This document shows, one piece after another, positions 4,572 through 14,467 of a DNA stretch of 33,689 nt (position 1 is the stretch's first letter; the number at the start of each line of letters is the position of its first letter). The DNA is taken from positions 1 through 33,689 of the forward strand of contig JAFQAZ010000004.1 of assembly GCA_017416855.1 (NCBI GenBank). Reading direction: 5' to 3'. Source of the stretch: Clostridia bacterium. Its GTDB lineage: Bacteria; Bacillota; Clostridia; UBA1381; UBA9506. The position numbers and the translations under genes are program-made. The notes beneath the pieces were generated by a model. The model was not told where the DNA came from, did no database searches, and saw only the letters and a list, made by a program, of their open reading frames with translations.

Positions 4572-5156
4572 TTAAAACTTTAAGTTTTTTTCTTTTCGAC
4601 CATCAAAGAGTAATCGCAAAAGAACAGAGCCGACTGAATTACCCAGAATAATGACCACAAACTTTAAAAGATTTACAGGTGAGAACACTAAAAACAGATA
4701 GGGAAAATCGGCAATACAGTGCTCAAAACCGGAGAGGATAAAGGCCATAATGCTCATTACGGTAATTAAAGGTTCTTTGGAATAAACGGCAATAAACATA
4801 AGTGCACCGCACATAATGCCGTGGGTAAACAAATACAGAAAATCGTGACCGAATTTAGCGTTGGCGGCAGCTTGCATAGCGGCCATAACCGTTTCTCTTT
4901 GGGGAATGATCATATACACCGTGAGGAATATGCCAACAAAATTGAAAATCAGCATAATGGCTAAGTCCTGCAGAGGAATATCTCGGATGAAGCCGATTTT
5001 TCCTGTATACAGGGTGAAACCGTTTTTGATAATGGTGAGTAATGCCAGACTGAACAAAAAGGAACCAACTACGGGATTTTCGGCGATGGTGTTAATCAGA
5101 ACACCAATTCCTACCAAAATACCGCTCACAATGGAGTGACGGATTAATTTTATCAT
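4572..5156 (-). CDS. short formate/nitrite transporter (FNT) family protein
   Basis: This is a polytopic membrane protein of 194 residues with about six hydrophobic segments. It carries FNT hallmarks: LYTGK (49-53), matching the family LFTGN re-entrant loop, and SGFEHCIAD (142-150), with the pore histidine at 146, followed by a GNSVG block (172-176). FNT pentamers conduct small monovalent anions such as formate, nitrite or hydrosulfide. Typical members have 250-280 residues; this one lacks the usual N-terminal extension and has short loops, so it may be a distinct subfamily. The substrate cannot be told from the sequence. It has its own promoter overlapped by a palindrome, which suggests regulation separate from lonB upstream. 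Confidence 0.8.
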   Translation of the reverse strand: MIKLIRHSIVSGILVGIGVLINTIAENPVVGSFLFSLALLTIIKNGFTLYTGKIGFIRDIPLQDLAIMLIFNFVGIFLTVYMIIPQRETVMAAMQAAANAKFGHDFLYLFTHGIMCGALMFIAVYSKEPLITVMSIMAFILSGFEHCIADFPYLFLVFSPVNLLKFVVIILGNSVGSVLLRLLFDGRKEKNLKF

Positions 5157-5245: not shown

Positions 5246-6931
5246 TCATTTTGTGGTGCCTGTGGCACTGTAAATGTGTGTCTGTGGCGGTGAGATAACC
5301 ACAGGCATTTGTCTGTGGTCTGTCGCAATGCCGAAAATGTGGCTGAAAATGTCGCTGATGTGCCCAACGGCAACAACCTGTATTGTATCAGGCCAGGTAC
5401 AGTCTTTGTAATTTTCCTCGGGAATAAAAACGGTTTTAATGCCGGCATTTGCGGCAGCGGTTACCTTAGCCGCAACGCCGCCCACCGGCTTGACCTTGCC
5501 GTGGATGGAAATTTCCCCTGTCATGGCAATGCGGTGACTCACCGGCTGATTGGTCATGGCAGAATATACGGCAGTTATAATCGCGGTGCCGGCAGAAGGT
5601 CCATCAATGGGCGTTCCACCGGGAAAATTGATGTGCAGATGATAGGCAGAAGGGTCAATGCCATAAAACCGCTCCAGTACCGTGAGCATATTTTCTACAG
5701 AGGCTCGGGCAGAGCTGGAACGGATAAACCGACCGCCCCGAGACTCCAGTTCTTCGGTTTCGATTATGCCGGTGACGGAGAGCTTGCCGGTGCCGGCAGG
5801 GCAGGGAACTGCACAAACCTCCACATCCATAACGGCACCACAATCAGCACCGGAAACAGCTAGACCATTGACCAAGCCCACAGAGTGACCGTCGACGACT
5901 TTCTTCTCATAACGCGGAACATACCGTCCGAATTCTGCTACCCATTTTACATCCTCAGTAGTAATGTTGTGCCGTTTATCCAAGAGGGCGACGCTACCGG
6001 CAATCTGAACAATATTCACAGCATCGCGGCCGTTCTGCGCATATTTGCAGACCAGCTCCAACGAGCCTGAATCGATTGAGAAATTACCTTTTTTGGCAGC
6101 GCTGTCAGCGATGGTTTGAATGTGATCCGGAGAAAGGGGTGCAAAAAAAATCTCCACACATCGGGAACGAATGGCAGGGGGGATATCCTCAGGTCCCCGG
6201 GTGGTGGCGCCGATTAAGCGAAAGTCAGCCGGCAGACCTTTTTGAAAAATTTCATGCACATGGGGCGGAATATCTTTGTTACCGGTGGAATAATAAGCGC
6301 TTTCCAAAAAGACTTTCCGATCCTCCAATACCTTGAGAAGCTTGTTGATTTGGGTGGGGTGCAGTTCACCGATTTCATCCAAAAACAAAATACCTCCGTG
6401 GGCTTTTGTCACGGCACCGGGTTTGGGTTGGGGCACGCCGGCAGGGCCATAGGCACCGGCCCCCTGATAAATAGGGTCGTGCACAGAACCAATTAAAGGG
6501 TCGGCAATACCGCGTTCATCAAAACGGAGAGTGGTGGCATCCATTTCTATAAATCTTGCATCGCTCCTAAAAGGTGAAAGCTCGGATTTTATGGCTTCCT
6601 GCAAAACTGCCCGGGCGGCGGCTGTTTTGCCCACGCCGGGCGGGCCGTAAATTAAAATATGCTGTGGGTTAGGGCCGCAGAGGGCGGCTTTTAAAGCCTT
6701 AATACCATCCTCCTGACCAATGACCTCTGATAAATTGGTCGGCCTTGTTTTTTCGGCAAGGGGCTGCGTTAAATGAATTTGTTTTAAGCGATGGAGCTTT
6801 TCCAGCTCTTTTAAAGAGTCGGTTTCTATACCGGATTTGCTCTGGTGTTGTCCCCGGAGCATATTGCAGAAATAAATCCCCATAACGGTGGTTAAAAAGA
6901 GTTGTAAAAGAATTAAAACAGTATTGAACAA
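5246..6931 (-). CDS. lonB: membrane-anchored sporulation protease LonB
   Basis: LonB is a Lon-family ATP-dependent serine protease; in Bacillus subtilis it is a forespore protein. The 561 residues match the family length of about 550. An N-terminal membrane helix (about 4-24) is followed by an AAA+ domain with Walker A GPPGVGKT (96-103) and Walker B ILFLDEIG (181-188), then a C-terminal Lon protease domain. The catalytic dyad is Ser446 in DGPSAG and Lys489 in GGVAAK. The start is TTG at 6931, with AGGAGG at 6942-6947. That ribosome binding site lies inside the terminator hairpin of pcrA, and a forespore-type promoter overlaps the hairpin, so expression is probably limited to the forespore. 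The final 20 or so residues after the protease core are a low-complexity tail. Confidence 0.93.
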   Translation of the reverse strand: MFNTVLILLQLFLTTVMGIYFCNMLRGQHQSKSGIETDSLKELEKLHRLKQIHLTQPLAEKTRPTNLSEVIGQEDGIKALKAALCGPNPQHILIYGPPGVGKTAAARAVLQEAIKSELSPFRSDARFIEMDATTLRFDERGIADPLIGSVHDPIYQGAGAYGPAGVPQPKPGAVTKAHGGILFLDEIGELHPTQINKLLKVLEDRKVFLESAYYSTGNKDIPPHVHEIFQKGLPADFRLIGATTRGPEDIPPAIRSRCVEIFFAPLSPDHIQTIADSAAKKGNFSIDSGSLELVCKYAQNGRDAVNIVQIAGSVALLDKRHNITTEDVKWVAEFGRYVPRYEKKVVDGHSVGLVNGLAVSGADCGAVMDVEVCAVPCPAGTGKLSVTGIIETEELESRGGRFIRSSSARASVENMLTVLERFYGIDPSAYHLHINFPGGTPIDGPSAGTAIITAVYSAMTNQPVSHRIAMTGEISIHGKVKPVGGVAAKVTAAANAGIKTVFIPEENYKDCTWPDTIQVVAVGHISDIFSHIFGIATDHRQMPVVISPPQTHIYSATGTTK

Positions 6932-6932
6932 G

Positions 6933-6984
6933 AAAAAAGCGCCTCCTGTTTATCATTTGGGTTTAGTATAAACAGGAGCGCTTT
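6933..6984 (-). terminator. pcrA terminator whose 3' arm contains the lonB ribosome binding site
   Basis: On the minus strand a 5' arm (6969-6984) pairs with a 3' arm (6936-6952) with a single bulged base, around a loop of about 16 bases, and is followed by six Ts. The 3' arm carries the AGGAGG (6942-6947) used by lonB, whose TTG start comes one base after the T run. Any transcript from pcrA would terminate here or hide the lonB site. Confidence 0.85.
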
Positions 6985-6994
6985 AAATTATTGA
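6964..6994 (-). promoter_or_regulatory. candidate forespore (sigma-G/sigma-F-type) promoter of lonB
   Basis: On the minus strand, TCAATA (6989-6994) and TATACTA (6964-6970) are 18 bases apart, against the sigma-G consensus TGAATA and CATACTA: 5 of 6 and 6 of 7 matches. Transcription would start near 6957, in the loop of the pcrA terminator, so the mRNA would lack the 5' hairpin arm and its ribosome binding site would be free. Confidence 0.5.
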
Positions 6995-7013: not shown

Positions 7014-9221
7014 TCAGTTTTCTTTTGTCAGCTTAGCAAAAGAGCCCAGCATGGTTTTTGTGCCGTGTTCGTCGAAGGCGATTTCCAGCTGTACATCACT
7101 GCCTGAGGGTGTAACGGAGATAATCATACCTCGACCGAATTTTTTGTGAGAAACCACATCACCGGGGCTATATGCTGCAGCAGCGGCCTTTTTGGCTTCT
7201 TTATCTTTAGAAAGGGCCGAAAGCAAGGACTGAGTACTGTCATAGAACTGATAGTCACGCTTTTTGGCAGGGGCTTCCTTCATTCGCTCCGGTTCTTTTA
7301 CAATGGCATTTAAGCATTCCATCGGAATTTCTTCCAAAAACCGGGAGGGCATTGTGTAGCCACTGCTGTCATAGCGGTTACGGTATCCGGCGTGGGTGAT
7401 AACAAGCTGATGCTTGGCACGGGTAATGCCTACATAGCATAAACGTCGTTCTTCTTCAATGTCATCTTCTGCCAAAGATTTAAAGCCGGGGAATAAGCCT
7501 TCCTCCAAGCCGCAAAGGAACACATGAGGGAATTCAAGACCTTTGGCACTGTGCAATGTCATCATCACAACGCTCTCTGCGGTTTCGTCGTAATTATCCA
7601 CATCGGAAATCAAAGCAGTGAGTTCCAAAAATCCAGCCAGGGAGGGTTCGGAATCGTTGCGTTCATATTCTAAAACAGCATTGGCCAATTCGTTTAAGTT
7701 ATCCAAACGAGTCTGGTTTTCCACGGAGTCATCCACCGTGAGCATAGCCCGGTAACCGCTTTCCACCAGCACGTGTTCAATGAGCTCTGAAGGCTTTACA
7801 TTGGTGGCTAAGGACTGTAATTTGCGGATTAAACCGGTAAACTCCATCACCTTATCAGCAACGCGGGCCAATTCAGGCTGTTCTTTGGCCTGCTCCATGG
7901 CGAGGAACATACTGATGCCAAAGCGATTAGCAACATCTGACACTTTTTCTAAGGTGGCGGCACCGATTTTGCGGGAGGGTTCATTCACAACCCTCAGCAG
8001 GCTGATGTTATCATTGGGGTTCTGCACAAGACGAAGGTAAGAGAGAATATCTTTAACTTCCTTGCGGTCATAGAACCTGAGACCTGCCAGCACACGATAG
8101 GGAATGCCGTGACCATTTAAGGTAGTTTCTATCACACGGGATTGAATGTTGGTGCGGTATAAAATAGCACAGTCAGAGTAGTTTCCGCCATCTTTTACAA
8201 CGGCTTTGATGCGGTTGGCGATAAATTCAGCTTCGTCATATTCGTTATCGGCACGGTATAAATCAATTAAAGAACCGGTGCCGTTTTTTGTCCACAGCTT
8301 CTTGCTTTTTCTACCGCGATTGTTGGCAATGACTGCGTTGGCGGCATCTAAAATAGTTTGGGTGGAACGATAATTCTGTTCCAGTTTAATTACCTGCGCG
8401 CCGGGGAATTCCTTTTCGAAATTCAAAATGTTCTGAATGTTGGCGCCACGAAATTTATAAATGCTCTGATCATCGTCACCTACTACACAAATGTTGTCAT
8501 AACCCTGCGCCAGCAGGCTGACCAGCATAGACTGAGAATTATTGGTGTCCTGATACTCATCCACAAAAACATAACGGAACTGCCGCTGATAGCGCTTTAA
8601 CACCTCCGGTTCCTGAGAAAGAAGCTGAACGGTGCGCATAATGATATCGTCAAAATCCAGGGCGTTTGCTTCCATCAGTTGTTTCTGATACTGACGATAG
8701 GCCTCGCCGATGAGTTTTTTGCGGTAGTTATCCTCGTGCATAGATAAATATTCGGTGGGACCGAACAGTTCGTCTTTAGCTGATGAAATTTCAAACAGCA
8801 CACTACGGATGGGAAGCATTTTTTCATCAATATTTAAAGATTTGAGCACTCGCTTCATTAAGGTTTTCTGGTCAGCAGAATCGTAGATAACAAAGTCGCT
8901 GCTGTAACCGCCACCCAATTTGTCTATGTCGCGTCGGAGAATGCGCATACAGAGGGAGTGAAAGGTTCCGATCCACATACTGTCGGCTTCTTCGCCAACG
9001 GTATTCATAATTCTTTCCTTCATCTCACCGGCGGCTTTATTGGTGAAGGTGATGGCTAAAATTTGCCATGGTTCTGCCTTTTTCTGTTCTAAAATATGAG
9101 CAATTTTGTTGACAACCACTGTGGTTTTGCCACTTCCGGCACCAGCTAATATGAGGAGAGGGCCATCTGTTTGCAAAATGGCTTCTCTTTGTTGTGGGTT
9201 AAATCTGCTTAAGTCTATCAT
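7014..9221 (-). CDS. pcrA: ATP-dependent DNA helicase PcrA/UvrD
   Basis: PcrA is the 3'-5' superfamily 1 helicase of Gram-positive bacteria, used in nucleotide excision repair, rolling-circle replication and clearing of RecA filaments and stalled RNA polymerase. All SF1A motifs are present in 735 residues: Q-motif LNPQQREAI-like start, Walker A AGAGSGKT (26-33), motif II DEYQDTN (about 220), motif [18 protein letters not shown], motif IV LEQNYRS, motif [15 protein letters not shown] and motif [10 protein letters not shown]. The C-terminal 50 residues ([17 protein letters not shown] onward) form the Tudor-like RNA-polymerase-binding tail. The start ATG overlaps the TGA of trmFO (ATGA), indicating translational coupling in the operon acetyltransferase-trmFO-pcrA. 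It ends at a strong terminator. Confidence 0.97.
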
Positions 9222-12328: not shown

Positions 12329-12808
12329 ATGAAAATAAAGAAATTAATTTCTTTTGTGTTTGTGTTGAGCATAGCTTTACTGCTTGCTTTAGAAGGTATG
12401 TATTCAGAACAGGGAGAATTAACATCGACAGCCTTGGCCGCCAGCCGGTCATCCAATGAAATCCAGCTTTTGGCCAGATGTGTAAACGGTGAAGCAAGAG
12501 GAGAACCGTATATTGGTCAGGTGGCGGTGGCGGCGGTTATTTTAAACAGAGTCCGGCATCCTTCTTTTCCCAATACCATTGCCGGTGTGATTTATCAGCC
12601 ACGGGCTTTCACAGCAACGATTGATGGTCAGATGAATGTTCCCATCAGTCAGGACAGTACAGTATATCAGGCATGCCAGGATGCGATGAACGGCTGGGAT
12701 CCTTCAGGCGGTGCTGTGTATTATTATAACCCACGCAAAACCACGAACCGCTGGATTTTTTCACGGGAAGTGGTGAAGGTGATTGGCAACCACCGCTTTG
12801 CCAGATAG
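12329..12808 (+). CDS. sleB: spore cortex-lytic enzyme SleB (catalytic domain only)
   Basis: SleB is a lytic transglycosylase that degrades spore cortex peptidoglycan containing muramic-delta-lactam during germination. The 159-residue precursor starts with a secretion signal (hydrophobic 7-22, likely cleavage after ALA near residue 38). The hydrolase-2 domain follows directly with LLARCVNGEARGEPYIGQVA; Glu55 is the expected catalytic acid. The usual N-terminal peptidoglycan-binding repeat of Bacillus SleB is absent, a shortened form common in Clostridia. AAAGGAG lies 7 bases before the ATG. The gene is 12 bases upstream of ypeB, its obligate partner. I found only a weak match to a forespore promoter upstream, although forespore expression is expected. 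Confidence 0.95.
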   Translation: MKIKKLISFVFVLSIALLLALEGMYSEQGELTSTALAASRSSNEIQLLARCVNGEARGEPYIGQVAVAAVILNRVRHPSFPNTIAGVIYQPRAFTATIDGQMNVPISQDSTVYQACQDAMNGWDPSGGAVYYYNPRKTTNRWIFSREVVKVIGNHRFAR

Positions 12809-14293: not shown

Positions 14294-14467
14294 ATGAGTA
14301 AGCGTTCAATCATGTCGAATCAGTTAAAAGAAGAAATCGCAAAAGAATTAGGCGTTTATGAAACGGTTAAGAAAAACGGCGGTTGGGGAGATGTTTCCTC
14401 CCGTGACTGTGGCAACATGGTGACCAAAGCCATTGAAATGGCGGAACGGTCGGTTTCAACATCGTAA
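14294..14467 (+). CDS. sspF: SspF-like alpha/beta-type small acid-soluble spore protein
   Basis: This short frame of 57 residues encodes a DNA-binding spore protein that coats and protects forespore DNA. The sequence has the SspF pattern: a basic N-terminus ending in MS, then LKEEIAKELGVYETVKKNGGWG split as LKEEIAKELG and VYETVKKNGGWG, a short turn, and NMVTKAIEMAE. Bacillus SspF shows the same K-ELAK-LGFYDTVK-GGWG and GNMVKRAIEIAE blocks. GGGAG lies about nine bases before the ATG. The position after sleB-ypeB places it in a germination/forespore cluster. Cleavage by the GPR protease would be expected near the Glu of the first block. An unusual Cys sits at residue 39. Confidence 0.88.
   Translation: MSKRSIMSNQLKEEIAKELGVYETVKKNGGWGDVSSRDCGNMVTKAIEMAERSVSTS

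Follow-up and report, generated by a model that had tools for sequence, protein, structure and literature searches.

A hairpin that probably terminates pcrA transcription, hides the lonB Shine-Dalgarno sequence and overlaps a forespore promoter in a gut clostridium

In a gut clostridium able to form spores, the region between pcrA and lonB is likely to be an insulator and a promoter at the same time: it would terminate transcription from upstream, hide the Shine-Dalgarno (SD) sequence of lonB, and free that sequence in RNA started at a forespore promoter. The window (the whole stretch of 33,689 nucleotides that was analysed) carries both genes on the minus strand, and their coordinates were read directly. 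In the mechanism that we propose, RNA started upstream would fold a hairpin which, together with a U tract, would end most pcrA transcripts; in the transcripts that read through, the hairpin would bury the ribosome binding site of lonB. In the forespore, a promoter of sigma-F type (perhaps used by sigma-G too) would initiate RNA in the loop, its spacer and −10 being part of the 5' arm. Because such RNA lacks the 5' arm, it would be neither terminated nor blocked, and would be translated into LonB. The basis of this mechanism is the anatomy of the locus, its conservation, compensatory changes, thermodynamics, conservation of the promoter at lonB and the presence of genes for forespore sigma factors; from them we infer the termination of pcrA, the start site, the acting sigma factor and the silencing of lonB in growing cells. 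As judged from sequence, the mechanism appears well supported by comparison.

The upstream gene, pcrA (7014-9221, minus strand), is an open reading frame for a DNA helicase that scores 916.9 bits against the NCBIfam pcrA model (cutoff 911.2) and ends with a TGA codon at 7016-7014. The downstream gene, lonB (5246-6931, minus strand), encodes a forespore membrane Lon-like protease identified by NCBIfam TIGR02902 (spore_lonB) with 808.3 bits, above a cutoff of 723.3. Its start codon is TTG (6931-6929), 10 nt after AGGAGG. A different true start codon had been contemplated in the preliminary description; however, the LonB N-terminus is alignable from the TTG in the 10 genomes of the genus and, as the spore_lonB cutoff is also passed, we consider TTG to be the real start. 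Only 82 nt separate the two genes. Read 5' to 3' on the minus strand, they contain TCAATA, an 18-nt spacer, TATACTA, AGGAGG and a T run. The −35-like TCAATA (6989-6994) of the putative forespore promoter has a comparable element in genus relatives, and the first three bases of the −10-like TATACTA (6964-6970) are inside the 5' arm of the hairpin. This arm (AAAGCGCTCCTGTTTAT, 6968-6984), a candidate anti-SD made of the spacer plus the first bases of TATACTA, is present only in RNA begun upstream. The loop (6954-6967) contains the predicted start of the forespore mRNA, placed around 6958-6956 from its distance to the −10. The 3' arm (ATAAACAGGAGGCGCTTT, 6936-6953) contains the SD sequence (6942-6947), and the U6 tract after the hairpin (6933-6938) would complete the intrinsic terminator of pcrA. 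The location of AGGAGG in the 3' arm of a terminator, with the TTG after the T run, had been noticed earlier and agrees with these coordinates (6947-6942, 6938-6933 and 6931); likewise, a TCAATA-18-TATACTA promoter had been described as overlapping the 5' arm, and its predicted start does fall in the loop.

An 85-codon open reading frame with an ATG start (6699-6956, minus strand), in a frame other than that of lonB, opens one base past the predicted start of the lonB RNA (AATGATAAACAGGAGG), and its start is also found in genome G007. This reading frame is probably a product of chance; a leaderless start at this site could compete with lonB. Directly downstream of lonB, positions 4572-5156 (minus strand) encode a 194-amino acid protein resembling formate/nitrite transporters; it is shorter than usual and scores 40 bits, well below the family cutoff of 232.

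Folding of the minus strand yielded a single hairpin at 6984-6936 (z = −4.57), and none of 200 shuffles was equally good. The stem (−21.3 kcal/mol) contains GC pairs and is directly followed by the U-rich sequence TTTTTTC, as in an intrinsic terminator. A terminator scan with a loop limit of 8 missed this hairpin, probably owing to that limit, and comparison with Rfam gave weak, sub-threshold matches only. Burial of the SD sequence was measured as an opening cost: the free energy that must be spent to unpair the SD in read-through RNA, with shuffled versions of the upstream part as reference. This measure replaced the mean unpaired probability of the SD, which could not tell real from shuffled sequence because AGGAGG pairs weakly nearly anywhere in AU-rich RNA. 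In RNA started upstream, the opening cost is 15.3 kcal/mol, compared with a shuffle mean of 5.9, and none of 300 shuffles reached the real value. RNA from the nested promoter, modelled as starting 6 nt after the −10 and thus devoid of the 5' arm, has an opening cost of 6.7 kcal/mol. This short RNA keeps a weak 9-bp hairpin over the SD (MFE −6.5 kcal/mol); the SD is therein freed, not bare. The computed fall in opening cost is in line with the original proposal that the SD is held in a stem in read-through RNA and free in RNA from the nested promoter.

A simpler view is that the hairpin serves as pcrA terminator and nothing else, the SD being trapped in the 3' arm owing to short spacing, so that sequestration would lack a function of its own. 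The hairpin and U tract have a textbook terminator appearance in the window and in G007, and the intergenic gap is indeed small. Yet we find this view unlikely when the genus is examined. LonB is present throughout the genus (10 genomes) and, among 10 further family members, in 7; all ten genus genomes keep the pcrA-lonB order, the TTG start and an [AG]GGAGG sequence 7-10 nt ahead of it; the block AACAGGAGG is kept in nine. Two of these genomes, G002 and G004, keep the stem and bury the SD in the absence of a T run and with loops much longer than a good terminator would have, and termination alone therefore fails as an explanation. Furthermore, a milder sequestration is detected at lonB of Bacillaceae, described below, even beside a separate terminator.

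The preliminary description had also suggested that relatives be compared for covariation of both arms. In the ten genomes the arms pair by differing bases: GCGC with GCGC in the window, ACGCC with GGCGT in G001, TGTTCAT with ATGAACA in G003, and G-U pairs in G002. In a loop-trimmed alignment, 7 cells were altered on both sides, compared with 2.0 in shuffles (0/500), a count that includes G005 and G009, where the outer arm, located farther upstream, was positioned manually, a placement biased towards the structure; without these two hand-fitted rows the count was 4, compared with 1.2 in shuffles (8/500). Control alignments in which the sequences were slid gave 0-2 such cells. As the SD sequence is fixed, the informative pairs are those beside it, and three of these covary, an observation that also argues against a terminator without further function. 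Hence compensatory changes do exist, and the genus conserves the hairpin along with the SD buried in it and the nested promoter; lack of conservation, a possibility raised at the outset, is contradicted for both hairpin and promoter. Exchanging upstream halves between genus members gave no information, since the two arms are conserved there.

Inverted repeats that overlap promoters are often operators, and the repeat described here overlaps the −10. One might accordingly think of a DNA site for some regulator instead of an RNA structure. Such an operator is, however, very hard to reconcile with the variation among close relatives, and we deem it highly improbable: the loop between the arms measures anything from around 14 to over 60 nt, with unrelated sequences, while pairing is retained, and the G-U pairs of G002 would be needless in a DNA palindrome.

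The opening cost of the long RNA was raised in 8 of the 10 genus genomes (7.5-15.7 kcal/mol, with shuffles at about 4-6). The values for the seven relatives other than the window were 15.3, 15.7, 10.8, 13.2, 7.9, 11.0 and 7.5 kcal/mol. The last of these is G004, the weakest raised case, in which 23 of 300 shuffles did as well. In 7 of the 8 genomes with raised cost, the short RNA had an opening cost of 3.2-6.7 kcal/mol; G004 is the exception, with 7.4 for the short RNA and 7.5 for the long one. Two genomes, G003 and G009, remained at background level (4.1 and 4.3 kcal/mol, respectively). These two are also the only ones among the ten in which pcrA is followed, ahead of the lonB promoter, by another intrinsic terminator, and their terminators are unrelated in sequence. 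In other words, sequestration is found in 8/8 genus genomes that lack another pcrA terminator and in 0/2 that have one. G003 and G009 do not form a clade in the LonB tree, which is mostly unresolved. The stem is missing from family members outside the genus, in which lonB does not follow pcrA, and this suggests a local innovation. Sequestration confined to loci where lonB lies behind pcrA and no other terminator is available agrees, on the basis of ten genomes, with the prediction for an insulator that guards against read-through from pcrA.

The pattern TCAATAN{17,18}YATAMTA occurs once in the whole window, at lonB, with 0.01 occurrences expected by chance. Upstream of lonB, HATAMTA is found in 10/10 genus genomes, preceded at 17-18 nt by CAATA or YWTA; relatives within the genus have [TG]CAATA or YWTA at the −35 position. 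Beyond the genus, lonB genes of Clostridia and Bacillaceae keep the same −10: almost all Bacillaceae in the sample have GTTTA-17/18-GATACTA (in the form GTTTA-N-GGAGATACTA), and GGATA-17/18-NATAMTA is common in other Clostridia. Such recurrence points to an old forespore promoter of lonB, not to a chance match. Genes gpr, spoIIR and those for small acid-soluble proteins (SASP) in the genus share the −10 (NATACTA or NATACTG), with a −35 located 17-18 nt away, and genes for SigG, a SigF-like factor, SASP, GPR and SpoIIR are present in the genome and in its relatives. The −35 of lonB varies with lineage: most Clostridia (loci L181-L247) have GGATAA, most members of the window's genus have [TG]CAATAA, and Bacillaceae have GTTTA. 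These differences look like a lineage-specific shift in the forespore −35.

The −10 of the lonB promoter resembles that of sigma-A promoters as well, with 5 matches out of 6 to TATAAT in the window (TATACT) and 6 out of 6 in G007 (TATAAT). If the nested promoter were a vegetative promoter read by sigma-A, LonB would be made during growth. We regard this as improbable: the −35 TCAATA coincides with TTGACA at only 3 of 6 positions, and orthologous promoters combine CATACTA, AATACTA or GATACTA with GGATA or GTTTA, like the promoters of gpr, spoIIR and SASP genes. A forespore promoter is thus the reading that we retain, and sigma-F is probably the type. Gene spoIIR is a sigma-F gene, and TGTNNATACT is common to the lonB promoter and spoIIR in the window's genus. 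Bacillaceae lonB promoters fit the sigma-F consensus, GYWTA plus a GG before the −10 (GGnrAnAnTw); the window lacks the GG. In B. subtilis, lonB belongs to the sigma-F regulon and depends on sigma-F (PMC3416734, PMC12239749), which speaks against a sigma-A promoter and, together with the GG of Bacillaceae and the block in common with spoIIR, leads us to read the nested promoter as probably sigma-F. The preliminary description had proposed a sigma-G forespore promoter, and the window does match the sigma-G consensus TGAATA-17/18-CATACTA at 5/6 and 6/7 positions. Its forespore class is upheld by the orthologous promoters; as those promoters are of the sigma-F class, the assignment should be changed from sigma-G to, probably, sigma-F. 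Sigma-G may possibly read the promoter too.

Elsewhere in the window, the SASP gene at 14318-14452 (plus strand; loci L064-L071) has a block past the −10, ATACTATGAGTGTAG, that is strongly conserved in the genus through the start region, and GAGTGTA is repeated at its Shine-Dalgarno sequence (GGAGTGTAAA ATG). Near it, positions 12329-12808 (plus strand) encode a SleB-like spore cortex hydrolase that is short and, with 198.9 bits, does not reach its cutoff of 236.5. The SleB-like and SASP genes make up another sporulation cluster, the second of the window.

The opening-cost calculation was extended to 81 lonB genes of Bacillaceae, all preceded by clpX wherever the neighbouring gene was readable. 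The cost of the long RNA was in the top 5% of shuffles (rank ≤ 0.05) in 28 of the 81 genomes, compared with 2 of 76 for a control, the next downstream gene in the same genomes. In addition, the SD of a Bacillaceae lonB is sequestered better by its own upstream half than by the halves of other species (Wilcoxon p = 1.4e-6, with no correction for relatedness). No link was found in Bacillaceae between sequestration and the lack of a separate terminator (Mann-Whitney p = 0.95). The effect is weak in other Clostridia, with 9 of 42 at lonB and p = 0.25 in the own-half comparison. The lonB promoter spacer of Bacillaceae (loci L090-L180) often contains TTCCC(TC), complementary to lonB GGAGGGAA. These data suggest that lonB promoter DNA may often be used as an anti-SD against read-through RNA. 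A broader generalization, which we offer as a speculation that could well be wrong, is that lonB promoter DNA has been shaped repeatedly in spore formers to act as an anti-SD in RNA that enters from upstream, and that the point where an mRNA starts would thereby decide whether it can be translated; the terminator between pcrA and lonB would be an extreme form.

The principle involved is already known. According to PMC5942855, which cites Masuda 1988 and Sun 1991, a hairpin of 20 bp or more hides the ribosome binding site of B. subtilis sigG (spoIIIG) in read-through RNA from spoIIGA-sigE and is unable to form in RNA from PsigG; the same text reports a 2-4 fold loss of expression through a hairpin of −6.2 kcal/mol at the sigG RBS, a value to set beside the −6.5 kcal/mol of the short lonB RNA. 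The likeness is that the ribosome binding site of a forespore gene is hidden in read-through RNA and free in RNA from its own promoter. The gene is different, however, as here a protease gene, lonB, follows the housekeeping gene pcrA; besides, the lonB hairpin ends in a U tract beside the TTG, while in the portion available the sigG hairpin is not described as a terminator. In phage T4, long early RNAs hide the ribosome binding sites of late and homing endonuclease genes (I-TevI, segB, soc, e) in a stem, and a late promoter initiates inside the 5' part of the stem, thus freeing the site (PMC2988022). A promoter within the 5' part of a stem that frees the ribosome binding site is what T4 has in common with the lonB locus. 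The T4 case differs in that it belongs to a phage time programme with T4 late promoters and no sporulation sigma factor, and its stem is not stated to be the terminator of an upstream gene. Gene position differs as well among lonB loci: that of B. subtilis is said to adjoin lonA, as reportedly noted by Serrano in 2001, lonB of the Bacillaceae covered here is behind clpX where readable, and lonB of the window is behind pcrA. With B. subtilis lonB, the window shares the gene and the promoter class, sigma-F and forespore (PMC12239749, PMC3416734). A literature search that covered few subscription papers retrieved no description of a read-through hairpin sequestering the ribosome binding site at lonB. 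What is new is lonB as the gene concerned, the fusion with the terminator of the upstream gene, in which the U tract reaches up to the TTG, and the comparative evidence.

The locus provides a testable case in which the point where RNA starts would set compartment-specific expression, with termination, translational silencing and a promoter packed within around 60 bp. If the wider pattern at lonB is true, selection would have acted many times to exclude LonB from growing cells, hinting that LonB may have a cost outside the forespore. The same design could then be sought at other sporulation genes located behind housekeeping genes.
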